DNA of 64,000 bases, from assembly GCA_013112585.1 (NCBI GenBank), contig JABFGH010000001.1, positions 62,001-126,000 of the forward strand. The letters are read 5' to 3'. Each line of letters starts with the position of its first letter. Position 1 is the first letter of the stretch. A program made the translations under genes and the position numbers. The DNA comes from Ignavibacteriota bacterium (GTDB taxonomy: Bacteria; Bacteroidota; Ignavibacteria; Ignavibacteriales; Melioribacteraceae). Under the pieces are notes generated by a model. That model searched no databases. It saw nothing but the letters and a program-made list of their open reading frames with translations, and was not told the DNA's origin. Below, piece by piece: positions 48,103 through 62,467 of this stretch.

Positions 48103-48135
48103 TGAAAGTAATTAAGTTGTTTGTTATTTTATTAT

Positions 48136-48151
48136 CAGAATAATAAATCTG
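48136..48151 (+). promoter_or_regulatory. CAGA-N8-TCTG palindrome before the Rrf2 gene
   Basis: The site CAGAATAATAAATCTG ends seven bases before the ATG of the Rrf2 regulator and is followed by AATAA. The same pattern is found at 51496, 54432 (weaker) and 54793, before nitrogen-oxide genes. The position suggests autoregulation. Confidence 0.6.
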
Positions 48152-48157
48152 AATAAC

Positions 48158-48589
48158 ATGACAGTAATATTTTCCAAAAAATGCGAGCTTGGACTCCAGG
48201 CGGTATTATTCCTTTCTATAAAGAAAGATAAAATGATTTTAAATGCAACGGTTATCTCGGAGGAATTAAAAGTTCCAAAAGAATTTGTTTCTAAGGTATT
48301 GCAGATTTTAACCGAAAGCGGGATTGTAGGTTCGAAGAAAGGGAAGAGCGGCGGATTTTATTTAGCTAAACGACCAAGTCAAATTAAGCTTATAGATATT
48401 GTTAATGCAATTGACGGAACAAGCATATTCGAAAATTGCGTTCTCGGTTTCCCCGGCTGCTCAAATGATAAACCTTGTCCGGTGCATGATAAATGGGGCA
48501 AACTTAGGGATGATGCATACAAAATGATGAGTGAAGAAACGCTAGAGCAATTAAAAGAAAAGACTCTTCAGAAAATTCTAAATTTATAA
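48158..48589 (+). CDS. Rrf2-family iron-sulfur regulator (NsrR-like)
   Basis: The 143-residue protein has an N-terminal winged helix (FSKKCELGLQAVLFLSIKK, LKVPKEFVSKVLQILTESGIVGSKKGKSGGFYLAK) and the C-terminal three-Cys motif CVLGFPGCSNDKPCPVHDKW, which would bind an Fe-S cluster as in NsrR, IscR and RirA. The location beside nitrite and hemerythrin genes, and the shared palindromes, suggest an NO- or nitrite-responsive repressor. NsrR from other phyla uses different operators, so I call it NsrR-like only. Confidence 0.85.
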   Translation: MTVIFSKKCELGLQAVLFLSIKKDKMILNATVISEELKVPKEFVSKVLQILTESGIVGSKKGKSGGFYLAKRPSQIKLIDIVNAIDGTSIFENCVLGFPGCSNDKPCPVHDKWGKLRDDAYKMMSEETLEQLKEKTLQKILNL

Positions 48590-48664
48590 AAACGATTTAT
48601 AAAACTTCTCATCTTTCATTATGAATCAGTAGGCTGGCGGATGTGGTATCCTCGTTATTTATTC

Positions 48665-48700
48665 AGATTGCTTCTCCCTGAAGATCGGGATCGCAATGAC
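48665..48700. repeat. REP-like element, second copy
   Basis: AGATTGCTTCTCCC followed by a short variable loop and ATCGGGATCGCAATGAC matches the reverse complement of 8373-8413. It lies in the 159-bp gap between the Rrf2 gene and the leftward hemerythrin gene. Confidence 0.7.
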
Positions 48701-48748
48701 AAATTATAGTTTACATTAATTATGATTTGTTGGTTTGAACAGACTGAA

Positions 48749-49204
48749 TTACTCTTTAGGTTTTACGGGTTCTATTTTTCCTTCAAGTACATCCAATTCA
48801 TCGCTGCTAAAAACTTCTTGAATTTTCCGGAATAATTCTCTTTCCTCAAGCCGGATGTGGCTTTCCAGTGCTAGACCAATTTTATCTAAGTGTTCAATCT
48901 TATTATCCGCATTTTCTATATTAACAAATAAGTTTTCCAGAGTTCTATGTTCGGAAATTATTTTAACAATCAGTTCATCCAAAATATCATCTCTGCCTTT
49001 TATAAAAGGGAAAAGTATTTCTTCTTCATTGATGAAATGTTTTTCAAGCTCGTGCGTCCACGCATTTAGTGCATACTCAATTTTACCTTCAGTCGTTTGC
49101 GGAAGCGTTTTATATGGAGGAGCATCTTTTTTTAATAACTGCGCTAACAATAATCCGTGGTGATGATCATGTGAAAGTGCAATTAAACAAGGGTGTCGTC
49201 TCAT
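48749..49204 (-). CDS. Hemerythrin-like HHE domain protein
   Basis: The 151-residue soluble four-helix protein binds a di-iron centre through ligands visible as LSHDHHHGLLLAQLL, HELEKHFINEEEILFPFI, EHRTLENLF and ESHIRLEERELFRKIQE. Such domains bind oxygen or NO. It is ten bases downstream of a methyltransferase gene on the same strand. Its place in a nitrogen-oxide region suggests a role in NO or oxygen sensing or repair. Confidence 0.88.
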   Translation of the reverse strand: MRRHPCLIALSHDHHHGLLLAQLLKKDAPPYKTLPQTTEGKIEYALNAWTHELEKHFINEEEILFPFIKGRDDILDELIVKIISEHRTLENLFVNIENADNKIEHLDKIGLALESHIRLEERELFRKIQEVFSSDELDVLEGKIEPVKPKE

Positions 49205-49214
49205 AATTCTCTTT

Positions 49215-49946
49215 CTACTTTTTTGTTGCTAAAATAACCAAATCCTTACTTTCGTTTAGATCGAATTCAGATTTATTTAACCCGCCGAAGAATTCAACAT
49301 TAAATTTGTTTGGATCAAAAATTCTTTGAAACAATTCTTTTGTATGAGGAAAAATCTCAGTCTTGATCGACCCTTTCTTGCTATTAATTTTATCTTCAAA
49401 ATCTATTATAAAATTTATTATTCCATTTTCAATTTCATAATATCGATTGATGAATAGTGAATCACTTTCCTTCTTATTAACCGAAAAATGTCCTGACTCC
49501 GGCAATAATTTAAAATTTAGTATTTGAATGAGGAGTGAACCTTTGGAAGTTAAATGTTGACTAATTGAATTTAGGATTTCCTTCAATTCACTTTCACTGT
49601 TATTTGCCAGACTGTTTCCAAGAGAAAGAATTAAATCATATTTCTTCTTATCAGGATTAAACTCTTTTATTCCCGAGACAGAAAAATTTATCTTGGCATT
49701 AAATTTTTCCCCATTCAATTTTGCTCTTTCAACCATTCCTTCGGATTGATCGACTGCATCAACGATAAGACCAAGTTTGCTTAAAGAAATTGAGTCAATC
49801 CCTGTTCCGCATCCTAAATCCAATGCTGTGGTTTTATCAGCCGTAAATGGTTTAAGTAAATCTTTCCTTCTTTCAATTGCAGATTCAAAGTCGATCATTG
49901 AATCGTAAAAATCTGCAAGGCGGTTATAAAATTCTTTGTTTGTCAT
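49215..49946 (-). CDS. SAM-dependent methyltransferase
   Basis: The 243-residue class I methyltransferase has motif I TALDLGCGTGIDSISL (residues about 39-54), the acidic residue after strand 2 (DAVDQSEGMVERA) and motif LILSLGNSLAN. The substrate is unknown. It is upstream of the hemerythrin gene and probably co-transcribed with it. It starts at ATG 49946, and a 281-bp gap holds the repeat cluster at 49988-50051. Confidence 0.82.
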   Translation of the reverse strand: MTNKEFYNRLADFYDSMIDFESAIERRKDLLKPFTADKTTALDLGCGTGIDSISLSKLGLIVDAVDQSEGMVERAKLNGEKFNAKINFSVSGIKEFNPDKKKYDLILSLGNSLANNSESELKEILNSISQHLTSKGSLLIQILNFKLLPESGHFSVNKKESDSLFINRYYEIENGIINFIIDFEDKINSKKGSIKTEIFPHTKELFQRIFDPNKFNVEFFGGLNKSEFDLNESKDLVILATKK

Positions 49947-49987
49947 AATTGTGGTAAAATATAATTAAAATTCTGCCATCTTTTATA

Positions 49988-50051
49988 AACCGTTAAAACG
50001 GTTATGTAGATTATTTGCTTTTACTTCTATTCCCACGATTGAAATCGTGGG
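49988..50051. repeat. Pair of perfect short palindromes
   Basis: AACCGTT-AA-AACGGTT (49988-50003) and CCCACGATT-GA-AATCGTGGG (50032-50051) lie 28 bp apart. Both are perfect stems with two-base loops. Short palindromes of this kind are common dispersed intergenic repeats in this group and do not look like terminators because no T run follows. Confidence 0.55.
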
Positions 50052-50195
50052 TTAATAAGTTTTTCAACCTTTCATATAAACTCTAAAGTCATAGGCTAAT
50101 TCAACAAGGTTATTAACTCCTTAATTGTTTAAGCGTATTTTTCAATGCCAATCATAAAAAAAACTGAGTTGCAAATTAAGTAAAAAGTTATTGCA

Positions 50196-50222
50196 TAAAA
50201 AGAAGGCTGCCGTAACAGCCTT
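50196..50222 (-). terminator. Terminator of the octaheme cytochrome gene
   Basis: On the minus strand the stem AAGGCTG-TTACGG-CAGCCTT is followed by CTTTTTATG, just after the stop codon. Confidence 0.8.
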
Positions 50223-50227
50223 TTATT

Positions 50228-51469
50228 TTATTTAATTTTATGATGAATTCTCATTTCTTCAGCCATATCTCTAATTTCACCAAGTGACTGCTGCATTGCA
50301 CTCCAGCCGTACCAAAGAGCATAATCGGGATTAGCATGGAAAGTGCCCTGGAATGTTCTGTTGCGTTCTTCTAAAAACATTTTAAATAATTTTTGTTCGA
50401 TCGAAGTCGGCGCATCATGGAAAGTTAATAAGAGTGGATATGCGTATGGATATGATTCAGGCTTCTCGATAATTCCGTCCTTGTAAAGATCGGCAACAAT
50501 GTTTATTGCTTCAGCCATAAGTCTATCTGCATTTCTGATCATGTCGTCGCCTTTCTCTAATTCAGCTTTAGCAAAATTTTCTGAATGACAATCGCTGCAG
50601 ACAGCTAACATTTTATCTCTTTCTGCTTGCCATGCTTCCTGAGTTAATCGAGCAACATCTGCACCCTTTACAACATCAAGCAAACCGGTTGGATTTCCTT
50701 CAGGATCTAAAACGCCAATTCCCTTTAGTACAGTAGCTCTGTCTGCTGCCCATTGTTCATCTTCCGGCATTGGTAAGCGTACTGCTAAAAATCCCCATGC
50801 CGTTCTAACTTCGTGATTTCCATTAGGCATGTGGCAAGTTTGGCAGGTTGGCGCAGGTGTACCTTCGGGCAAAGTTCCATTTTGCTTTAGTAAATATCTT
50901 ACACCATGTTTCGAGCCGGAATACATTTCCCATTGAGGATGATCGAAACCGGTATGGCAAGTTTGACATGCTTGAGGCTGCTGAGCTTCTTTTACGGAAA
51001 ATGTATGTCTGGTATGACATGCATCGCAGGAAGCATGACCGAATCCCGATCCTTCAGCTTTTAACTTTTTAATTTCTTCTTCTGTTTTAATACCCAGCTT
51101 GTGGCATCCGCCGCATCCTTTCATACCTTCTGTCATTGCAATCGGCTGTGCGTGAATTGTAGGCATTGCTTTCATTGCTGCCCAGGCTAAAGCATGTTTA
51201 CCTTTTTTGAATTGTGTAACTTGAGTATCATGACACATATTGCAAGTTTCATAAGTAGGTAATTCAGCTTTTGCAAAATCTGCGGATGTGTTATGTTCGG
51301 AACCGTGACAAGTTTCGCAATCAACATCATTATCGGAGTGTTTGCTTAACTGCCAATCTACCACTGCTTGCGGTGTAACTTCTTTATGACAATCGATACA
51401 AGTTTGAGCATTTACAGTATATATTGTCATCAAAAGAAAAGTAAATAATAGTGCGGCTTTTTTAGTCAT
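50228..51469 (-). CDS. Octaheme c-type cytochrome, hydroxylamine oxidoreductase-like
   Basis: The 413-residue periplasmic protein has a signal peptide ending VNAQ and eight CxxCH heme sites: residues 24-28, 51-55, 76-80, 119-123, 148-152, 168-172, 209-213 and 291-295. The segment HPQWEMYSGSKHG after heme 6 and the spacing match the HAO family. Without ammonia-oxidation genes, such proteins in DNRA bacteria are thought to reduce nitrite, NO or hydroxylamine. I cannot tell from sequence alone whether the HAO crosslinking Tyr is present. It is monocistronic with its own terminator, and the palindrome at 51496 lies 27 bp upstream of its start. Confidence 0.9.
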   Translation of the reverse strand: MTKKAALLFTFLLMTIYTVNAQTCIDCHKEVTPQAVVDWQLSKHSDNDVDCETCHGSEHNTSADFAKAELPTYETCNMCHDTQVTQFKKGKHALAWAAMKAMPTIHAQPIAMTEGMKGCGGCHKLGIKTEEEIKKLKAEGSGFGHASCDACHTRHTFSVKEAQQPQACQTCHTGFDHPQWEMYSGSKHGVRYLLKQNGTLPEGTPAPTCQTCHMPNGNHEVRTAWGFLAVRLPMPEDEQWAADRATVLKGIGVLDPEGNPTGLLDVVKGADVARLTQEAWQAERDKMLAVCSDCHSENFAKAELEKGDDMIRNADRLMAEAINIVADLYKDGIIEKPESYPYAYPLLLTFHDAPTSIEQKLFKMFLEERNRTFQGTFHANPDYALWYGWSAMQQSLGEIRDMAEEMRIHHKIK

Positions 51470-51495
51470 AAGTCCTCTCAGTTATTATTTATAAA

Positions 51496-51511
51496 GAGAA
51501 TTATAAATCCG
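51496..51511. promoter_or_regulatory. CAGA-N8-TCTG-like site before the octaheme gene
   Basis: GAGAATTATAAATCCG differs from the Rrf2-gene site in three of 16 positions, and the following AATAA is also shared. It lies 27 bp upstream of the leftward octaheme gene start. Confidence 0.55.
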
Positions 51512-51563
51512 AATAAAATTTAAAATCTTTAATCTTCACTTGCAATCAGCAAATTATTTTGAG

Positions 51564-52076
51564 TTACTTTTTTCTGATGTAGGTATGAAACAGGTTAGCT
51601 GATTCTTGATCGGAAAAAGTCTCAAATCCTTTTTCTTCAATAATATTTATTAATGGTGCAGGCACAAAAGGAGTAGTAAGTACATACGATTCATTTTCTG
51701 CAAGTGTCATTATTTCTCTACTCACTTTATCAGAAGGGTGCTTGCCCGACTGAATATCCATCGTTGCATCATAGTTTATTTTAATTTTATTTTCTGTTAC
51801 CCAGTTTGGTTTTGTCATGTTAGAATTTTCCTTGTTCACTTTTATTTCGTTCATGCCGGCTTGCTTTCTTAATCCGTTTATTAAATCGGCAAGCGGCACA
51901 TTTGCAATTGTAGAAGCCTGTTTAAGATTTGTAACTTTTGCTATTGTTTTTCTAAGTGCAGGGTTTTTAAGCTTTATGAACAGCGGCGCAAGTTCAATAA
52001 ATTTATCCTCAAGTTCCGGATAAGCATCAAGCAGTTCATTTAAATTTGTATGCGGGGAAATCTCGGGTTTATTCAT
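51564..52076 (-). CDS. DUF1858-DUF2249 protein (ScdA_N-like)
   Basis: The 170-residue protein has an N-terminal DUF1858 domain (SPHTNLNELLDAYPELEDKFIELAPLFIKLKNPALRKTIAK in outline, residues 6-75), the piece found at the start of the NO-stress repair protein ScdA/YtfE. The C-terminal half (ENESYVLTTPFVPAPLINIIEEKGFETF) resembles DUF2249, a TusA-like fold. It is 94 bp upstream of the octaheme gene on the same strand. It probably helps in NO detoxification or Fe-S repair. Confidence 0.75.
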   Translation of the reverse strand: MNKPEISPHTNLNELLDAYPELEDKFIELAPLFIKLKNPALRKTIAKVTNLKQASTIANVPLADLINGLRKQAGMNEIKVNKENSNMTKPNWVTENKIKINYDATMDIQSGKHPSDKVSREIMTLAENESYVLTTPFVPAPLINIIEEKGFETFSDQESANLFHTYIRKK

Positions 52077-52298
52077 TTTAACAATCTCTCAGCTAAATTA
52101 GTATCATTTATTTTAGTTTCTATTATCAGTACTAGGCGTTATTTTTTCTCCTAGATAATGTAAGGTTGGAAATTGCTCCATTCCGATTAAAGGGTTCGGA
52201 ATTTGCAAAGACATTTATATGTTGCCTCATTGTTCCACTTGAAATATTCTTTATGATTCTCTTAAACATCTGATGACAATTATGAGTGAAAATTTTAA

Positions 52299-53534
52299 TT
52301 ACTTCTCATCATATTGTAAAATTCGTCTTTCACCTTCAAGTTCACGGTATTCGCCAATCTCCTGCGACATTTCAACAGTTCCAAGATATTCGCCATTTTC
52401 ATCTCTTACAGCATAGTATGCTATATGCACAAACTTACCCTGAACGTTGATCCAAAATTTTGCCGAATCTTGCCTGCCGCTTTTGAAGTCATCAACAATT
52501 TCATTTACAATATGTACACTTGAAGGGGGATGGCAAAATTTAACTTCTCTGCCGAGTATAGTTTTTGGACGATCAAATATTCTTTCCTTTCCGTGTGAAA
52601 AATATCTTACTCTATCATCCTTATCAACAAAAGTTAGATCAATGGGAAGGGAATTGATCATTGATTCAAGCTCATTCAATTTCAATGCTCCAGTTGAAAA
52701 CTTTACCTTGCTCTCATCTGCAACTGAATCTTTCTTTTCAATTTTTATATTTGGTTCCCATTTTATTTCCGGGTAAAAAAGGCAATAACCTGTTTCATCA
52801 CTCTGCTCGTAAATTTCATACCAGTCAATTTCGGTAAGGGTATCCATGCTCATCGGAAAAAGTATTTCTTCTTCCTTGTAAATCATATCTTCAATTGCTT
52901 TAACCGTTGGCGCAAACATCATTTCAATAAAGCCGTTAACCGTTTCGGCTGTTGCTTCATCCTGCTCTTTGAAAAGTGAGAAACATGATTTTAGCAATCC
53001 CCGTATCTCATCATCCTTACCCCACATTACCATTGGCGGACCTGTGATTTCATACTTTTCCAAATAGGGAAACAACTGATTTTCCTTTCGCATATAATGT
53101 TTATCAATATCCATCAACTGATTGAACATTGAATTTAAGGAAGCTAGAATATCTTTAGAATCTGCATTTGGGTCCCGCTTAGAATTTTCCTCAAACAATT
53201 CTTTTATGCCTTTTAATAGCTTTGTGATTTCTAAATTTTCCTTTCGGAAAGTATCAACCGGGTGACCTGCCGGAACTTCCTTTGCATGTGAAGTATCAAT
53301 TTTACCGCGTAAAGCTTCGGAGTGGATATCGCAAAATTTCAATACTTCTTCGCGATCTAATCCTTCTTGAATTAGTTCTTCTTCTGCCTGCACAACATCG
53401 CCATAAGGAACACTGCCCATCAACTCAGTTAATTTTGATTTTGTTTCTTCAACGGAATATCCTTCATGCAGTTGAAGAATTAATTTCTTTAACTCTTCAA
53501 CTCGCTTTTTACTATTATTTATTAATTCACTCAT
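52299..53534 (-). CDS. DUF438-hemerythrin-PAS protein
   Basis: The 411-residue protein has a DUF438 domain (1-90: LILQLHEGYSVEETKSKLTELMGSVPYGDV), an HHE hemerythrin domain (about 95-240, with DKHYMRKENQLFPYLEKY and YKEEEILFPMS) and a C-terminal PAS domain (about 280-400: DLTFVDKDDRVRYFSHGKERIF, then GREVKFCHPPSSVHIVNEIV). This architecture is common in anaerobes. It is thought to sense or scavenge NO or oxygen. It is co-directional with, and 24 bp after, the ferredoxin gene. Confidence 0.88.
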   Translation of the reverse strand: MSELINNSKKRVEELKKLILQLHEGYSVEETKSKLTELMGSVPYGDVVQAEEELIQEGLDREEVLKFCDIHSEALRGKIDTSHAKEVPAGHPVDTFRKENLEITKLLKGIKELFEENSKRDPNADSKDILASLNSMFNQLMDIDKHYMRKENQLFPYLEKYEITGPPMVMWGKDDEIRGLLKSCFSLFKEQDEATAETVNGFIEMMFAPTVKAIEDMIYKEEEILFPMSMDTLTEIDWYEIYEQSDETGYCLFYPEIKWEPNIKIEKKDSVADESKVKFSTGALKLNELESMINSLPIDLTFVDKDDRVRYFSHGKERIFDRPKTILGREVKFCHPPSSVHIVNEIVDDFKSGRQDSAKFWINVQGKFVHIAYYAVRDENGEYLGTVEMSQEIGEYRELEGERRILQYDEK

Positions 53535-53558
53535 CGTAATCCTTTCTTTTAATATATT

Positions 53559-54404
53559 TTATGCAAGTGGAACTTCTTTTAATATTTCGCCATTGATTCC
53601 AAGAACAACAGCGTTTACAGGAATTTGTCTCTCTGCATCCATCACCGCCTGTTGTGCCATTTGCGCTAATCCGCTGCAGCAGGGCACCTGCATTATTAAC
53701 ACAGTTATTGACTTAAGATTTGATTCATTTATCATTGTTGTTATTTTTTCTAAATAAATTTCTGTATTAGAATCAAGTTTTGGGCAGGCTATTGCGATAC
53801 TTTTTCCTTTCATATAATCTCTATGTAAATCAGGCGCTGCAAAGCCGCAGCAGTCCGCTGCAAGCAGCAAATCAGAATTACGATAATACTGAGCATTTGG
53901 AGAAATTAAATGTAATTGAATCGGCCATTGAGTTAATTGCGAAGGTCGCTTTCCCGATTCATCTTCAGCCGGTTCTTCTGCATCAAAACTAATTGATTGC
54001 GAACCCGGACAGCCGCTGAACTTCTGCTGCGGCGCTTGTGTCTCATTTTCAGTTAATGGATTCGGAATTCCTTTTTCAATTAAATATTCCAAAGCAATTG
54101 TGGCATATTCAAATTCCTCGTGATCTCTTAAGTGTTCGAGATGAGCTTTAATAACATTTTTACCACCCTTAACAATATAATCCATAACCTTTCTTTCATC
54201 ATAAGGTTCGGCTTCCCGTTCTTCAATTGTTAAGGCACCGGTAGGGCAGTGTCCCAAACAGGCTCCAAGCCCGTCGCAAAAAAGATCGCTGACTAATCTC
54301 GCTTTTCCGTCAATTATTTGTAATGCGCCTTCGTGGCATTCCGGTACGCAATCGCCGCATCCGTCGCATTTTTCTTCATTTATTGATATTATTTTTCGTT
54401 TCAT
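53559..54404 (-). CDS. 4Fe-4S ferredoxin-type protein with extra Cys pairs
   Basis: The 281-residue protein has two N-terminal cluster motifs: CDGCGDCVPECHEGAL (Cys at 13, 16, 19 and 23) and CDGLGACLGHCPTGAL, in which the second Cys of the usual motif is Leu. The C-terminal 120 residues contain LAADCCGFAAPD, IAIACPKLDSN and QVPCCSGLAQMAQ, Cys-rich pairs that suggest a further metal or disulfide site. Such proteins occur next to hybrid-cluster or NO-stress genes. It heads a two-gene operon with DUF438, and a weaker copy of the palindrome lies 28 bp upstream. Confidence 0.8.
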   Translation of the reverse strand: MKRKIISINEEKCDGCGDCVPECHEGALQIIDGKARLVSDLFCDGLGACLGHCPTGALTIEEREAEPYDERKVMDYIVKGGKNVIKAHLEHLRDHEEFEYATIALEYLIEKGIPNPLTENETQAPQQKFSGCPGSQSISFDAEEPAEDESGKRPSQLTQWPIQLHLISPNAQYYRNSDLLLAADCCGFAAPDLHRDYMKGKSIAIACPKLDSNTEIYLEKITTMINESNLKSITVLIMQVPCCSGLAQMAQQAVMDAERQIPVNAVVLGINGEILKEVPLA

Positions 54405-54431
54405 TGCATTCCTAAGTGATTTATTGTTAAA

Positions 54432-54447
54432 CAGAAAAAAAAGTCCG
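54432..54447. promoter_or_regulatory. Weak CAGA-N8-TCCG site before the ferredoxin/DUF438 genes
   Basis: CAGAAAAAAAAGTCCG matches the motif with several mismatches in the A-rich middle and keeps the outer blocks. It is 28 bp from the leftward ferredoxin start. Confidence 0.4.
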
Positions 54448-54711
54448 ATTAAAATTATAAAAAAAATGGAAAATATACAAACTATTTCAAATAGGATAAA
54501 AGGTTGGTTTCAAGTTTGTAATTGTAAACTGTTGAAATGGCTGAAAATGTATTTAGAGTGGTTGTTAATGAAGCACTTAACTTCTTAGATAATTATAATA
54601 AAACATGATTATTAACTGTTTTAAGAGTTTCTTGTTGAGGAGGAGTAAAACATTTGTTTCATTAAATATAGCAAAATCATGTTTTGTTTATCATTTGTAT
54701 AGATTTAGTTA

Positions 54712-54723
54712 ATCAAATTTGAT
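54712..54723. promoter_or_regulatory. Perfect palindrome ATCAAATTTGAT
   Basis: A 12-bp perfect palindrome lies in the 426-bp divergent gap between the ferredoxin and nrf operons. The half-sites look like FNR/CRP half-sites in reversed order. The rest of the gap (54405-54830) holds the two CAGA sites and AT-rich sequence with no ORF. Confidence 0.35.
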
Positions 54724-54792
54724 GATTGTAATAATCCTAATATTTAGCCCGATTTTTATTGCATAAAAGATTTTCAGATGTTATTTTGTAAT

Positions 54793-54808
54793 CAGAATTA
54801 AAAATCTG
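54793..54808 (+). promoter_or_regulatory. CAGA-N8-TCTG palindrome before the nrf operon
   Basis: CAGAATTAAAAATCTG differs from the Rrf2-gene site at three central positions. It ends 22 bases before the TTG of the first gene of the nrf operon. Confidence 0.6.
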
Positions 54809-54830
54809 TTTAAGAGAAAGGATTTAGGTT

Positions 54831-55934
54831 TTGAAAAAAGCTGCAAAAATTATTAAAAACACCGAAAAACCAATACAGAAATATAGATTTATAATTCAGA
54901 TACTATTTGCACTTATTTGCATCTGGATTGGAGTTGAATTTTATTTATTCACAACCTACCTCGAATCGGGAGGAACGACTACATTTTTTGAACGTCCGCC
55001 CGGAGCGGAAGCATTTTTACCTATCAGCTCGATGATGAGCGTTTATTATTTCTTCTTAACAGGAGATATTCATTCGGCACATCCCGCCGGTTTCTTCATT
55101 TTCATTGCAATTATAGTTGTCTCACTTTTAGTAGGAAAATCCTTCTGCAGTTGGATTTGCCCTGTCGGACTCCTTTCTGAGTTAGTAGGGGATTTCGGGG
55201 AAAAGGTTCAGAAAAAATTATTTAAGCGAAAACTTCGTATGCCGAAATTATTGGACTATCCACTTAGAAGCATTAAATATTTGCTGCTGGGATTTTTCGT
55301 CTTCTCAATTTTCTTTGCGATGACAAACGCGGCTTTAAAATATTTTTTAGATAGTTCATATAATATTATCTCCGATGTAAAGATGTACTACTTTTTTGCA
55401 GATATTTCCCGAACATCGATTATTGTAATTTCTGTTTTATTTCTTCTTTCAATAATTATTAGAAATTTTTGGTGCCGCTATTTATGTCCTTATGGTGCAT
55501 TGCTTGGATTCATTTCATTTTTTAGTCCGACAAAAATAAAGCGTGATGCAGATAAATGTATCGACTGCTCACTTTGTACAAAAGCTTGTCCGTCAAACAT
55601 TAATGTTGAAAAAGTAAATGTTGTATTTTCAGATGAATGCTCTTCCTGCCTTAGCTGTGTTGATGCATGCCCGGTAGAGGATACTTTGTACTTAAAATCA
55701 TATATTACGAAAGAGAAAATAAATAAAAAGGTAATAGCATTTGGAATTGTTGCCGTTTATTTTATAATACTTGGTATAGGAATGGTGACCGGAAATTGGC
55801 AAGCGCCAACTACGAAAGAAGAATATTTAATGCACTTCAAAAATAAAAATTCTATTGGTCATCCCAGAAGCACAAAAGACATAAACAAATTAAATAAACT
55901 TACAGAAGGAAATGCTAATGAGTTCAACAAGTAA
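54831..55934 (+). CDS. NapH-like membrane polyferredoxin
   Basis: The 367-residue protein has about five membrane helices, with CSWICPVGLLSE and WCRYLCPYGALLG on cytoplasmic loops and two C-terminal 4Fe-4S motifs: CIDCSLCTKACPSNI and CSSCLSCVDACPVED. This matches NapH/CcoG-type proteins that move electrons from quinol or handle maturation. Its place before nrfH and nrfA suggests it feeds the nitrite reductase or its maturation. The start is TTG 54831 after AAAGGATTTAGG, and its end overlaps nrfH. Confidence 0.88.
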   Translation: MKKAAKIIKNTEKPIQKYRFIIQILFALICIWIGVEFYLFTTYLESGGTTTFFERPPGAEAFLPISSMMSVYYFFLTGDIHSAHPAGFFIFIAIIVVSLLVGKSFCSWICPVGLLSELVGDFGEKVQKKLFKRKLRMPKLLDYPLRSIKYLLLGFFVFSIFFAMTNAALKYFLDSSYNIISDVKMYYFFADISRTSIIVISVLFLLSIIIRNFWCRYLCPYGALLGFISFFSPTKIKRDADKCIDCSLCTKACPSNINVEKVNVVFSDECSSCLSCVDACPVEDTLYLKSYITKEKINKKVIAFGIVAVYFIILGIGMVTGNWQAPTTKEEYLMHFKNKNSIGHPRSTKDINKLNKLTEGNANEFNK

Positions 55935-56529
55935 TTCCGAAAACAATTATATCAAAAAACTTGTTCCGCCCCCAAATTGGCAATTGCCGGTTCTAATTTT
56001 ATTTGGAATTATGGTAGGATTAGGAATGTACATATTGTATATCTCTAACGCTGTATCATACTTATCTGATAAACCGGAAGCATGTGTAAATTGCCACGTT
56101 ATGGCGCCTCAGTTTGCTACATGGGAACGCAGTAGTCACGGCAGAGTAACAAATTGTAATGATTGTCACGTTCCGCATGATAATTTTGTGCGTAAATATG
56201 CGTTCAAAGCTATGGATGGATTACGACACGCGACGATGTTTACGTTAAGATTGGAACCTCAGGTAATTCGAATTAAACAAGCCGGTAAAGACGCTGTGCA
56301 GGAAAATTGTATTAGGTGTCATAGCAATAACATTCATCCCATTTCACTTAGGGCAGTCAGCAATGCAAGTATTATTGATGAAGGAGATAGGTATTGCTGG
56401 GACTGCCATAGAACAGTGCCGCACGGAAGAGTTAATAGTCTCTCTTCAGCGCCTTACGCAAGGGTACCGATTTCGGCTGCACCTGCACCGAAATGGATTG
56501 ATGATTTTATTAAAATGAAAAAAAATTAA
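55918..56529 (+). CDS. nrfH: Tetraheme quinol dehydrogenase of nitrite reductase
   Basis: The 203-residue protein is of the NapC/NirT type, with one N-terminal membrane helix (about 22-43) and four CxxCH sites (CVNCH, CNDCH, CIRCH, CWDCH). The first reads CVNCHVM, the Met-ligated heme typical of NrfH. It takes electrons from menaquinol and passes them to NrfA. ATG 55918 is chosen because AAGGA lies seven bases upstream; ATG 55912 would touch it. It overlaps the preceding gene by 17 bases. Confidence 0.93.
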   Translation: MSSTSNSENNYIKKLVPPPNWQLPVLILFGIMVGLGMYILYISNAVSYLSDKPEACVNCHVMAPQFATWERSSHGRVTNCNDCHVPHDNFVRKYAFKAMDGLRHATMFTLRLEPQVIRIKQAGKDAVQENCIRCHSNNIHPISLRAVSNASIIDEGDRYCWDCHRTVPHGRVNSLSSAPYARVPISAAPAPKWIDDFIKMKKN

Positions 56530-56554: not shown

Positions 56555-58054
56555 ATGAGTTCAACAAATGACGGAGCTAAAAGAAAACCCATAACAAACT
56601 GGTTTCTATTTATTGTTACGGTTGTTGTAGTTTTTTTAATTGGTATGTTTGCTTCATCTATTATTGAAAGAAAAGCCGAAGGAGTTTATACCTTACAAAT
56701 GGTTAAACCAATTCCTGAAGATGAAACACGAAATGAGGTTTGGGGAGCTAATTTTCCGCGAGAGTATGAAACCTATATGCAGACCTTAGAAACAGATTTT
56801 GCAAGTGAACATGGCGGTTCAAAAAAAATTGATTATTTGGAAACATATCCCGAGTTAGTTGTCTTGTGGGCGGGCTATGGTTTTTCTAAAGATTATAATC
56901 AAGGTAGAGGTCATGCTTACGCTATTGAAGATCTTAGAAATACTTTAAGAACAGGGGGTGAAAGCAACGATCCTATGCCGGCAACCTGCTGGGCATGTAA
57001 AGGTCCTGATGTTCCAAGAGTAATGAAAAAAGTTGGCGTTACAGAATTTTATGCAGCAACCTGGAAAGAAAGAGGTGATCAAATTGTTAATCCAATTGGC
57101 TGCGCCGACTGCCACGATAATGAAACAATGAATTTAAAAATTACCCGTCCGGCACTTGCTGAAGCATTTGAACGACAAGGTGTTGACATGAGTAAATTTA
57201 CCAGAAATGAAATGCGTTCCTTAGTTTGCGCACAATGCCACGTTGAATACTACTTTAATACAGCCGGGCATGACGGCGTGCCTTACTTAACTTTTCCGTG
57301 GGATAATGGATTCAGTGCCGATGATATGGAAAAATATTATGATGATTTAGATTTTTCAGATTGGACACATCAACTAAGTAAAGCCCCAATGTTAAAAGCT
57401 CAGCATCCTGATTATGAATTATATATGACAGGTATTCATGCCAAGCGCGGAGTTTCGTGCGCTGACTGTCACATGCCCTATAAAAGTGAAGGCGGGGTTA
57501 AGTTTACTGATCATCATGTGCAGAGCCCTTTAAATAATGTAGCAAACTCATGCCAGGTATGCCACAGAGAGAAAACAGAAGATTTAGTTCGCGATGTTTA
57601 TGAAAGACAGGAGAGGTTAGGAGAACTAAGAAGAATTGCGGAAGTGAATTTAGCTGCTGCTCATTTAGAGGCAAAAATTGCATGGGATAATGGAGCAACT
57701 AAAAAAGAAATGAAAGATGTTCTAACCTTACTTCGTCATTCCCAGTGGAGATGGGATTGGGTTGCCGCAGCGAACGGTTTCGGTTTCCATTCACCGGTTG
57801 AAGCACTTCGAGTACTTGGAACTTCAATTGACAAAGCGCAGCAAGCACGTAAAGAGCTTGCATTAATATTAGTGGGGAAAGGTGTTGGCTATCCGGTTAA
57901 ACTTCCTGATATATCAACCAAAGCTAAAGCTCAAAAGGTTATCGGCTTGGATGTGGATTTAATGATTAAGGATAAGGAAGAGTTTTTACAGACCACTGCT
58001 AAAGAATGGGATAGAAAAGCTAAAGAGCGGCAAGGTACTTTAGTAAAATATTAA
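56555..58054 (+). CDS. nrfA: Ammonia-forming cytochrome c nitrite reductase
   Basis: The 499-residue pentaheme enzyme reduces nitrite to ammonium with six electrons in the periplasm. The catalytic heme site is CWACK (residues 145-149, Lys149 as ligand). Four CxxCH sites are at 183, 225, 302 and 333. AQHPDYELYMTGIHAKRGVSCADCHMPY contains the conserved calcium/active-site stretch. The N-terminus is an uncleaved membrane anchor or signal (residues 15-34). It follows nrfH by 25 bp and ends at a strong terminator. Confidence 0.97.
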   Translation: MSSTNDGAKRKPITNWFLFIVTVVVVFLIGMFASSIIERKAEGVYTLQMVKPIPEDETRNEVWGANFPREYETYMQTLETDFASEHGGSKKIDYLETYPELVVLWAGYGFSKDYNQGRGHAYAIEDLRNTLRTGGESNDPMPATCWACKGPDVPRVMKKVGVTEFYAATWKERGDQIVNPIGCADCHDNETMNLKITRPALAEAFERQGVDMSKFTRNEMRSLVCAQCHVEYYFNTAGHDGVPYLTFPWDNGFSADDMEKYYDDLDFSDWTHQLSKAPMLKAQHPDYELYMTGIHAKRGVSCADCHMPYKSEGGVKFTDHHVQSPLNNVANSCQVCHREKTEDLVRDVYERQERLGELRRIAEVNLAAAHLEAKIAWDNGATKKEMKDVLTLLRHSQWRWDWVAAANGFGFHSPVEALRVLGTSIDKAQQARKELALILVGKGVGYPVKLPDISTKAKAQKVIGLDVDLMIKDKEEFLQTTAKEWDRKAKERQGTLVKY

Positions 58055-60850: not shown

Positions 60851-62467
60851 ATGACGGATAAAGATTCTTTAAAAACACAAAAATTGATTGTAGGTGTATT
60901 TAGTGTTCTCTTTGTAGTAATACTAATGATTATTGCCGGGGTAGAAATGAAACAATCGGTTAGCCCAAGTCCTATTATTGAGATAAGCGGATTAAATAAA
61001 AGATGCGTGGATTGCCATACAAGTAAAGGGATAGCGGTAAAAGCAATCGATCACTGGAAACAAAGCATGCATGCAGAACAGAACATTTCCTGTATTGATT
61101 GCCACACTGCCGAAGAGACAGATTTTGATGCTTTTTTCTGTCCCGAAAGTGATATTAGAGTTGCAAAACATCCTACCCCAAAAGATTGTGCCGAATGCCA
61201 TGAAAAGGAAGTTGTTGAATTTACAGAGAGCAAACATGCCCATCAATTTTGGCTGATTAAAAATGCAGACCGTTCTGTTTTTGAATTTCCAATTGGAACA
61301 AGACATGGCTGCGAACAATGTCATAGTGTCAGCACTATGTGGCCCGACGGCAGCGTTGGTGAATGCGATGCTTGTCATGCTAAGCATTCATTTAGTAAAG
61401 CTGTGGCACGCCAGCCGGAAACTTGCGGTGAGTGTCATCTTGGTCCAGACCACCCTCATATTGAAATTTATCTTGAATCGAAACATGGAAATATTTTTAG
61501 AGCAACTGAAAAAGATATTGACTTAAATTTTAAGTCGGATGACCATGACCAAATACCAATTGATATTCCAGTATGCACCACCTGTCATATGGACTCTGAT
61601 GGGCAGCAGCCGATGACGCATAATGTAAGTGCACGCTTGGCTTGGGAATCACAAGCACCCTGGAGTTTTAGAACTGTTTGGGAAGAAGAAAAACTTGGCG
61701 ATTGGAAAATGAAAAGAGGACGAATGGAATCAGTTTGTAAAAGCTGCCATTCACCCGATTTTGTTGGTGTTTACCTTCTTACTGCAGATTTAGTGAACCT
61801 GCAATACAATGAGATGAGAAGACAATTTGTTTATTGGACAAAAAAACTTACAGCCTCGGGAATCATAAGCCGATTAGAATTAGATGGTAAATATTATTCT
61901 GACCCGGTGCTTAACGGCTGGGATGAAGTTCCCGAAGATATGATGTACAAAGCTTGGCATCACGAAGGAAGAAGATTTAGACACGGCGCTATAATGATGG
62001 GTGCTGATTACACGCAATGGCATGGCGTGTGGGAACTTCAGGAAGACCTTGGCAAAATGATTACCTGGGCTGCCGAAAAAGGAGATGCCGAAGCTAAAAG
62101 ATGGGTTGATTCCAATCATCCCGGCAAATGGATTCCGTTTGCACTTTATGATATACCCGGTAATGCTTGGGGAATTAACTCACACATAAATACAACACCT
62201 TTTGTTTATAATAATTACCCGGACTATTGGGAACGTGTTTACAAAAATGTTGAGAAAGCCCACAAGGAAGGACTGCTTACCGACGATCAATGGGAACTTT
62301 GGTTAGGCAGATACAATAATAAAGATCATTATCTCGGTACAAAATACACAGAACAGAATGATTCTTTGTATAAGCATTATCAGGATCTTGATAAGAAAGA
62401 TACTGAAGCATTTAAAAAACAAGCTGTTGAGTTAGAATTACCGGGTGAAAGTTTTTGGAAATATTAA
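60851..62467 (+). CDS. Membrane-anchored octaheme cytochrome, HAO-like
   Basis: The 538-residue protein has one N-terminal membrane helix (11-30) and eight CxxCH sites at residues 52, 81, 113, 154, 172, 192, 242 and 296. The layout matches the octaheme protein at 50228-51469 (HIEIYLESKHG against QWEMYSGSKHG; GADYTQWHGVWELQ against NPDYALWYGWSAMQ) but it is longer and anchored. It follows cytochrome b by 24 bp, so it is most likely the electron acceptor of the bc complex and a terminal reductase for nitrite, NO or hydroxylamine. The substrate is not proven. Confidence 0.9.
   Translation: MTDKDSLKTQKLIVGVFSVLFVVILMIIAGVEMKQSVSPSPIIEISGLNKRCVDCHTSKGIAVKAIDHWKQSMHAEQNISCIDCHTAEETDFDAFFCPESDIRVAKHPTPKDCAECHEKEVVEFTESKHAHQFWLIKNADRSVFEFPIGTRHGCEQCHSVSTMWPDGSVGECDACHAKHSFSKAVARQPETCGECHLGPDHPHIEIYLESKHGNIFRATEKDIDLNFKSDDHDQIPIDIPVCTTCHMDSDGQQPMTHNVSARLAWESQAPWSFRTVWEEEKLGDWKMKRGRMESVCKSCHSPDFVGVYLLTADLVNLQYNEMRRQFVYWTKKLTASGIISRLELDGKYYSDPVLNGWDEVPEDMMYKAWHHEGRRFRHGAIMMGADYTQWHGVWELQEDLGKMITWAAEKGDAEAKRWVDSNHPGKWIPFALYDIPGNAWGINSHINTTPFVYNNYPDYWERVYKNVEKAHKEGLLTDDQWELWLGRYNNKDHYLGTKYTEQNDSLYKHYQDLDKKDTEAFKKQAVELELPGESFWKY

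Follow-up and report, generated by a model that had tools for sequence, protein, structure and literature searches.

An Rrf2-type protein as the likely repressor of a nitrogen-oxide regulon with its own operator in Ignavibacteriales

Which regulator governs the nitrogen-oxide genes of the Ignavibacteriales? The question is raised by a 64,000-nucleotide stretch of a genome of the family Melioribacteraceae (assembly GCA_013112585.1, contig JABFGH010000001.1, positions 62,001 to 126,000), here called the window. It holds a gene for a small Rrf2-family protein (gene rrf2, protein Rrf2a) together with genes for an octaheme cytochrome c, a ferredoxin and a polyferredoxin followed by nrfHA. A preliminary description of this DNA had proposed that a palindrome in front of these genes marks an Rrf2-controlled nitrogen-oxide regulon. 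We confirm this observation with corrections, and its interpretation is supported. The motif and the regulon stand, whereas Rrf2a as the binder and nitric oxide (NO) as the signal went past the evidence. The motif, its conservation, the target genes, its position at the promoter and its place before rrf2 can all be read from the DNA. We consider it quite probable that these sites serve as operators for a repressor that controls its own gene as well, most likely Rrf2a (gene start at position 48158).

All four sites described earlier are present, namely the 16-mers CAGAATAATAAATCTG at 48136 before rrf2, GAGAATTATAAATCCG at 51496 before the octaheme cytochrome gene, CAGAAAAAAAAGTCCG at 54432 before the ferredoxin-DUF438 genes and CAGAATTAAAAATCTG at 54793 before polyferredoxin-nrfHA. 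They are separated from the start codons by 6, 26, 27 and 22 bp, respectively; thus all four, not two as had been counted, are less than 30 bp away from a start codon. The layout first given, CAGAAT-N4-AAATCTG, has 17 letters and is one letter too long, as the real sites have 16 (CAGAAT-N4-AATCTG). We rejected the 17-letter spacing, which is found at 44 places, none of them a window site. The CAGA-N8-TCTG core, thought to be common to the four sites, is present at 48136 and 54793 but not at the other two.

The upstream regions of orthologous promoters in genomes of the window's family have in common a 24-bp palindrome, TAATCRGA-N8-TCYGATTA, which is the full footprint. Orthologues were searched in 79 genomes of the family with the Rrf2 protein, the octaheme cytochrome, the polyferredoxin and the 281-aa ferredoxin as queries; close relatives of rrf2 in named records are in many cases labelled Melioribacteraceae or Melioribacter. 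From 72 distinct sites in the polyferredoxin and ferredoxin upstream regions of other genomes, the window's own sites being excluded, we built a symmetric position weight matrix of 26 columns with an information content of 22 bits. This held-out matrix ranks the four sites first to fourth in the window: O4 (54788..54813, 5' of polyferredoxin-nrfHA) with a score of 26.7, O3 (54427..54452, 5' of the ferredoxin-DUF438-DUF1858 genes) with 24.7, O1 (48131..48156, the 26-mer ATTATCAGAATAATAAATCTGAATAA, ending 1 bp ahead of the rrf2 ATG) with 24.4 and the weak O2 (51491..51516, 5' of the octaheme cytochrome gene) with 16.6. The fifth place scores 13.2.

In 200 first-order Markov simulations of the window, a score of at least 24.4 was never reached, at least 20 was reached in 4 and at least 16.6 in 11. 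The octaheme site therefore leans on its orthologues. Of these, 13 of the 30 examined have an upstream site of at least 16, and O2 is credible only together with them. Allowing up to three mismatches, the palindrome is found at 8 places in the window (1.79 expected), a number reached by none of 100 shuffles. The whole genome contains 121 such places against 67 for the reversed control; thus, the looser genome matches are mostly noise. The CAGA-N8-TCTG core alone occurs twice in the window (0.55 expected), which is not significant as 12 of 100 shuffles reach two; the genome has 27 copies of it and 9 of the reversed control. We rejected the literal core as the motif because it is too common in both. 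Within 1.19 Mb of rrf2 neighbourhoods there are 83 sites of at least 16, compared to 0 for the reversed and 0.4 for the shuffled matrix (training sites partly included).

A scan of the whole genome had been proposed as a check, and its best profile places do lie at nitrogen-oxide genes, which largely bears out the expectation. The profile R1 was built from 50 sequences including the genome's own polyferredoxin, rrf2 and ferredoxin sites but not its own nar site. The best four places are at polyferredoxin, nar, rrf2 and ferredoxin, all with E<=0.0067; O4 (E=6.5e-4) is the best of the genome and O1 has E=0.0066, both being among the building sequences. The octaheme site, the weakest of the four window sites, reaches 11.5 bits and is not outstanding genome-wide. 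The nar site is new, lies outside the window and precedes a cytochrome c-narG-narH operon, in which narG and narH score over the NCBIfam cut-offs and two further genes are taken for narJ and narI from their order and length. With at most one mismatch the palindrome is found at 4 places of the genome (ferredoxin, polyferredoxin, the nar operon and C7:149541) against 0 for the reversed control. The last of these (C7:149541-149564, matrix score 16.6) lies upstream of a gene encoding a protein of 125 aa, at a distance of 6 bp. A 129-aa relative (34% identity, E=8e-18) is encoded directly behind a 27.9 site in G227 (L413:4426), a genome of another family of the order. Neither the 125-aa protein nor this relative matched a Pfam family. 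The small-protein family is a probable further member of the regulon. Rank 5 of the R1 scan is taken by C8:66182-66201 (E=0.068, matrix score 19.9), about 300 bp before a radical-SAM-like gene. A gene with a similar start and a Radical_SAM match is located close downstream of polyferredoxin in G041 (L287:4071-5288), and the radical-SAM-like protein may belong to the regulon.

The operator stands before a wider set of genes in the relatives. In the window's family a site of at least 16 is found upstream of polyferredoxin in 51 of 56 cases and of ferredoxin in 27 of 30, many of which are training data. The family targets are polyferredoxin-nrfHA, ferredoxin, the octaheme cytochrome, DUF438-DUF1858-RIC-norB (genome G010), RIC-norB (G031), hcp (G048), a place between hcp and nrfHA (G040), cytochrome c-narG-like genes (G055) and nosZ clusters; in G038 one site is in front of a cupin gene. 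Profile searches underlie the names RIC, norB, hcp, nrfH, nrfA and, for G046 and G017, nosZ; the other target names come from sequence resemblance. The hcp genes were not part of the training. Of the 79 genomes 5 have hcp. In the four of them where rrf2 is present as well, a site scoring 22.0-25.7 is found no more than 180 bp upstream of hcp; in G010 and G040 a polyferredoxin or nrfH gene diverges from this same upstream region, and the copy nearest hcp in G010 reaches only 13.1. In G036, which has ferredoxin-hcp and no rrf2, nothing scores above 3.9 in the fetched hcp upstream region. We then turn to two further families of the order, f2 and f3, where 17 stretches around listed sites were inspected; judged by its coordinates, one of the f2 genomes corresponds to the Ignavibacteriaceae record of L389. 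In 15 of them the site is at a nitrogen-oxide or companion gene, that is, at a nosZ cluster, cytochrome c-narG, ferredoxin, DUF438, nrfHA or, in G242, rrf2-polyferredoxin-RIC-nrfH-nrfA. The remaining two are the small-protein gene of L413 and a site within the end of an unrelated gene (L402). Three places with at most one mismatch in G042, which has no rrf2, were not counted: two of the three stretches around them contain nothing above 15 on the matrix, and the third (18.6) is at a gene without an evident nitrogen role. The regulon as first drawn was too narrow, for nar, nos, nor and hcp are included as well. The proposed tie between ammonification and NO defence holds at the level of sequence.

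What does the position of the operator tell about its function? In the window a promoter-like sequence, TTGCAT-N17-TATTTT (54759..54787, + strand), directly abuts O4. The usual layout at the targets is TTGACA-N17-TAATTT with the operator following immediately. Among 109 distinct proximal sites of at least 18, TTGA or TTGC is found upstream of the 26-mer at a distance of 29 bp in 42 cases and of 28 bp in 17, and a T-A-rich hexamer stands directly against the operator. At the polyferredoxin sites the TTGA or TTGC offset is -29 or -30 in 32 of 51. The operator thus covers the likely transcription start, which is the geometry of a repressor and unlike the usual activator site. Since the promoter directly abuts the operator at most targets, repression is likely.

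Is Rrf2a the protein that acts there? It scores 96.9 bits against PF02082 (cut-off 30) and 105.5 against TIGR00738 (cut-off 73.3), which places it in the Rrf2 superfamily. The equivalog models for NsrR (NF008240, 36.6 bits, cut-off 182) and IscR (TIGR02010, 52.9 bits, cut-off 207.55) give scores far under the NCBIfam cut-offs, and we rejected both names for Rrf2a. The SUF-regulator model gives 61.3 bits (cut-off 110.65), and the RirA and CymR equivalog models also leave Rrf2a far under their cut-offs. An AlphaFold2 model (pLDDT, the predicted local distance difference test, 87.6) matches structures of RsrR, CymR, IscR and NsrR with E<=0.001, the first three being among the top matches. An alignment of 25 sequences (Rrf2a and 24 homologues, down to 44% identity) shows no variation at Cys94, Cys101, Cys107 and His110, which form a putative ligand pattern C-X6-C-X5-C-X2-H.

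The site is kept beside orthologous rrf2 genes in relatives, a conservation that the preliminary description had named as a further check, and its presence before rrf2 agrees with the proposed autoregulation as far as sequence can tell. Of 64 family rrf2 genes (65 orthologues minus the fragment of G016), 23 have an upstream site of at least 16, and in 18 of these the 16-mer starts 16-23 bp before the ATG. Named rrf2 loci have a site within 130 bp in 32 of 80 cases, many of them from the same genomes as the family set. For f2 and f3, 22 of the 29 listed rrf2-bearing genomes have a site within 100 bp of rrf2, and in 21 of the 29 its distance to the start codon is -1 to 12 bp; nine more rrf2-bearing genomes (not listed or without a place) stand outside this count. 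In most genomes having the operator there, its end reaches the rrf2 ATG or falls a few bases short of it. Nine family genomes have rrf2 directly 5' of polyferredoxin, with the site before rrf2 in eight. Subtracting these nine and G024 (contig end) from the 66 polyferredoxin orthologues leaves 56 for co-occurrence. Here the polyferredoxin site is found in 48 of 49 genomes with rrf2, the miss being a 64-bp contig end, versus 3 of 7 without rrf2. The latter three are 82-87% complete assemblies; the rrf2-less genomes lacking the site are G036, G072 and G074 (96-100% complete) and G078 (85%). In f2 and f3, 38 genomes with rrf2 have 89 places with at most one mismatch (control 3) and 6 without rrf2 have 3 (control 1). 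We note that the genomes are related and that such counts are not independent events.

Several findings weigh against Rrf2a as the binder. An upstream site of at least 16 is absent at 41 of the 64 family rrf2 genes, and at rrf2 itself the -35-like box is poorly placed (at -28 in 5 of 20). Sites exist although rrf2 was not found in G015, G037 and G038 (82-87% complete) and in G390 (92%, a ferredoxin site), and 7 of 14 rrf2-less family genomes have a place with at most one mismatch (11 places, control 2). Conversely, G076 has a 50%-identical Rrf2 but no site. Next to nos there is a second Rrf2 paralogue, which has this operator as well and might be its binder. Finally, genomes outside the order without a close rrf2 have about 0.33 places per genome (63 in 192, control 6). 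The reversed control therefore understates the background, because the palindrome occurs outside the order even without a close rrf2. Genomes outside the order with rrf2-like proteins have little more (46 places in 108, about 0.43 per genome), and we rejected an extension to the whole class. Given this background, the link between Rrf2a and the site is claimed for the Ignavibacteriales only. Among the families examined at class level f8 stands out, with at least 22 near-perfect palindromes in 24 genomes that lack a close rrf2 (0 with the reversed pattern). Taken together, position, neighbourhood and partial co-occurrence, counter-examples included, suggest that Rrf2a probably is the binder.

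The homologues offer a further look at this link. Residue 45 of Rrf2a should correspond, by alignment-range offset, to Glu43 of IscR, which is described as a DNA-contacting residue (PMC9338935). Of 72 homologues with Val or Ile at position 44 and Ser45 (one, L388, is misaligned), 49 have a site at some place in the fetched locus. Those with T44-S45, V44-A45, L44-A45 or L44-G45 have it in 0 of 7 loci, and one A44-A45 homologue has a weak site (17.2). That changes in the recognition helix go with site loss is suggestive only, the sequences being few and related. We searched for variant palindromes upstream of rrf2 in the Thr44 group with no clear result. The Thr44 homologues L359, L365, L367 and L372 lack the site and have in common a different AT-rich stretch upstream of rrf2, which possibly is a changed operator.

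The most serious alternative is that regulon and operator are real but that another protein binds, either the nos-linked second Rrf2 or an unrecognised regulator, rrf2a being merely a target. A second Rrf2 gene with the same operator before it is found ahead of the nos genes in G046, G044, G017, G051, G021 and G041, and a few genomes without detectable rrf2a still have sites. Among the matches listed (to about E=3.5e-21), however, the nos-type paralogue is present in a minority of the 79 genomes and not in the window's own, though that has strong sites. One such paralogue is only 31% identical, and a divergent copy could escape the listed matches, which weakens this argument. In the near-complete G036, G072 and G074, all with polyferredoxin, rrf2a and the site are both missing, which speaks against another binder. 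We consider a different binder unlikely. The second Rrf2 genes at the head of nos clusters, behind the same operator, were observed at L272:5877-6287, L279:8179-8574, L280:4236-4637 and L284:76-561; in the L280 protein, Cys takes the place of His at the last ligand position of the alignment. The Rrf2 gene Mros1101 of Melioribacter roseus, located beside nosZ and suggested as a nos regulator (PMC3534657), appears to be of this nos-linked paralogue type and not the window's rrf2. It differs from the present case in that no motif and no wider regulon are named in the part of that report available to us.

Regulators of the CRP/FNR type (FNR, DNR, HcpR) control nrf and hcp in other phyla, and one of them could bind the sites here. 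In delta-proteobacteria, nrfHA, nar, hcp and ferredoxin genes are among the predicted targets of HcpR (PMC1274295), and a 2025 review assigns both main nrf operon types to Crp-FNR (PMC12285233). The published HcpR sites, wTGTGAnnnnnnTCACAw, TTGACnnnnGTCAA or GTAACnnnnGTTAC (PMC1274295), differ from the half-site TAATCRGA and the 8-bp spacer; the overlap of operator and promoter is unlike the usual activator site; and the regulator adjoining the site is by Pfam an Rrf2 protein and not a CRP/FNR protein. A partial-nitritation anammox reactor in which an Ignavibacteria metagenome-assembled genome (MAG) accounted for about one third of the DNA has been surveyed for CRP/FNR; the study includes two Ignavibacteria MAGs and reported no evidence there of denitrification control by CRP/FNR (PMC8510549). 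We consider a regulator of this type quite improbable. That the sites are AT-rich palindromes chosen by eye in one neighbourhood, for which the weak enrichment of the core, the genome count with three mismatches and the background outside the order could be quoted, is practically negligible as an explanation and is already contradicted by the held-out ranking, by the excess near rrf2 and by positions before orthologous genes that are fixed in at least two families.

The best reading of these data is an iron-sulphur (Fe-S) repressor of the Rrf2 family and of the NsrR kind that would control a nitrogen-oxide regulon in the Ignavibacteriales through its own operator. We infer that Rrf2a binds and represses and that NO acting on the Fe-S cluster is the signal, and suggest the following steps. 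A dimer of Rrf2a with an iron-sulphur cluster held by three Cys and one His would bind TAATCRGA-N8-TCYGATTA. As the operator begins right behind the -10 element of a TTGACA-type promoter, bound Rrf2a would block RNA polymerase. Nitric oxide or a related nitrogen oxide would damage the cluster, whereupon Rrf2a would release the operator. The result would be joint expression of nitrate reductase, nrf, the octaheme cytochrome, NO reductase, nitrous oxide (N2O) reductase, hcp and the di-iron/ferredoxin repair proteins, each species keeping the subset of targets it owns.

How does this compare with known systems? NsrR, the NO-sensing Rrf2-family repressor of proteobacteria, bacilli and streptomycetes, shares with Rrf2a the Rrf2 fold with cysteines that in Rrf2a are putative cluster ligands, targets including hcp, norB, a di-iron repair protein and nrf, and an operator on the promoter. 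The NO-detoxification targets are found here too, with the site preceding hcp, RIC, norB and nrf in relatives. The differences are the C-X6-C-X5-C-X2-H pattern and sites that are also at the respiration operons nar and nos. The sites differ from the textbook NsrR operator, as had been said. The core of the published operator, gATGyAT-N5-ATrCATc (PMC1274295), was found in 0 of 180 upstream regions and at 0 places in the window, with best fits of 4-5 mismatches in 152 of the 180, and we rejected it as the identity of the sites. Rrf2a thus may work like NsrR, although its score and the operator speak against identity. IscR, the SUF regulator and RsrR share the same fold. The cluster ligands of IscR are three Cys and one His with X5 between the first two Cys; C94, C101, C107 and H110 of Rrf2a would be such a Cys3-His set with X6 instead. 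A difference from IscR and SUF is that the targets found are nitrogen-oxide genes (isc and suf promoters lie outside the set examined). The HcpR regulon of delta-proteobacteria, clostridia and Bacteroides resembles the one described here in its targets hcp, ferredoxin, nrfHA, nar and hemerythrin-like genes (PMC1274295), but regulator family and operator are others, and the geometry here suggests repression.

A more far-reaching proposal is that a single Rrf2 Fe-S repressor with its own operator and the C-X6-C-X5-C-X2-H motif serves as the nitrogen-oxide master switch (nar, nrf, octaheme, nor, nos, hcp, RIC and ferredoxin) throughout the Ignavibacteriales, in place of FNR, NarL, DNR or HcpR, and that the operator changed with residues 44-45 in sister groups. 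We see this proposal as evenly balanced between true and false. Our literature search did not find the motif or an Rrf2 nitrogen-oxide regulon in this order, most subscription journals being outside the search; what came closest were the suggestion on Mros1101 and the CRP/FNR survey cited above. The regulon would explain how nitrogen-oxide respiration and defence are switched on jointly in Ignavibacteriales and would extend the Rrf2 family by a subfamily of new DNA specificity. Operator and candidate repressor make the choice among nitrate reduction, ammonification and N2O reduction testable, and the matrix can be used for reading transcriptomes.

The genes behind the window sites are as follows. 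The rrf2 gene (48158..48589, + strand) encodes a candidate winged helix-turn-helix repressor of 143 aa (PF02082, 1.3e-27). The presumed target of O2 (50228..51469, - strand) is an HAO/HDH-like multihaem cytochrome c with 8 CxxCH motifs (PF13447, 1.7e-27); its match to NF052343 (2.9e-26) is far under that model's cut-off. The 281-aa 4Fe-4S ferredoxin protein (53559..54404, - strand, Fer4 domains) is a target in all parts of the order examined. Presumably in the same operon are a DUF438-hemerythrin-PAS protein (52299..53534, - strand; PF04282, PF01814, PF13596) and, after a gap of 222 bp, a DUF1858 protein (51564..52076, - strand; PF08984). Genes similar to the former have a site directly in front in G010, G319 and G231, and a DUF1858-like gene follows DUF438 behind a site in relatives as well. 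On the + strand O4 is followed by a NapH-like polyferredoxin with a TTG start (54831..55934; TIGR02163, 1.6e-26, under the cut-off; Fer4_5), nrfH (55912..56529; TIGR03153 over the cut-off) and nrfA for the ammonia-forming cytochrome c nitrite reductase (56555..58054; PF02335, 5.8e-174; NF008339 over the cut-off).

Two further genes of the window may be added. Between rrf2 and the octaheme gene there is a hemerythrin-domain gene (48749-49204, - strand), and genes with a similar start are found near polyferredoxin, octaheme or norB in the relatives L273, L276, L277 and L287. A second, distant octaheme homologue is located at 60998-62074 of the window (G000:C1:122998-124074) in an open frame of 538 aa, with 36% identity over part; upstream of it there is only a weak palindrome with three mismatches (60690).

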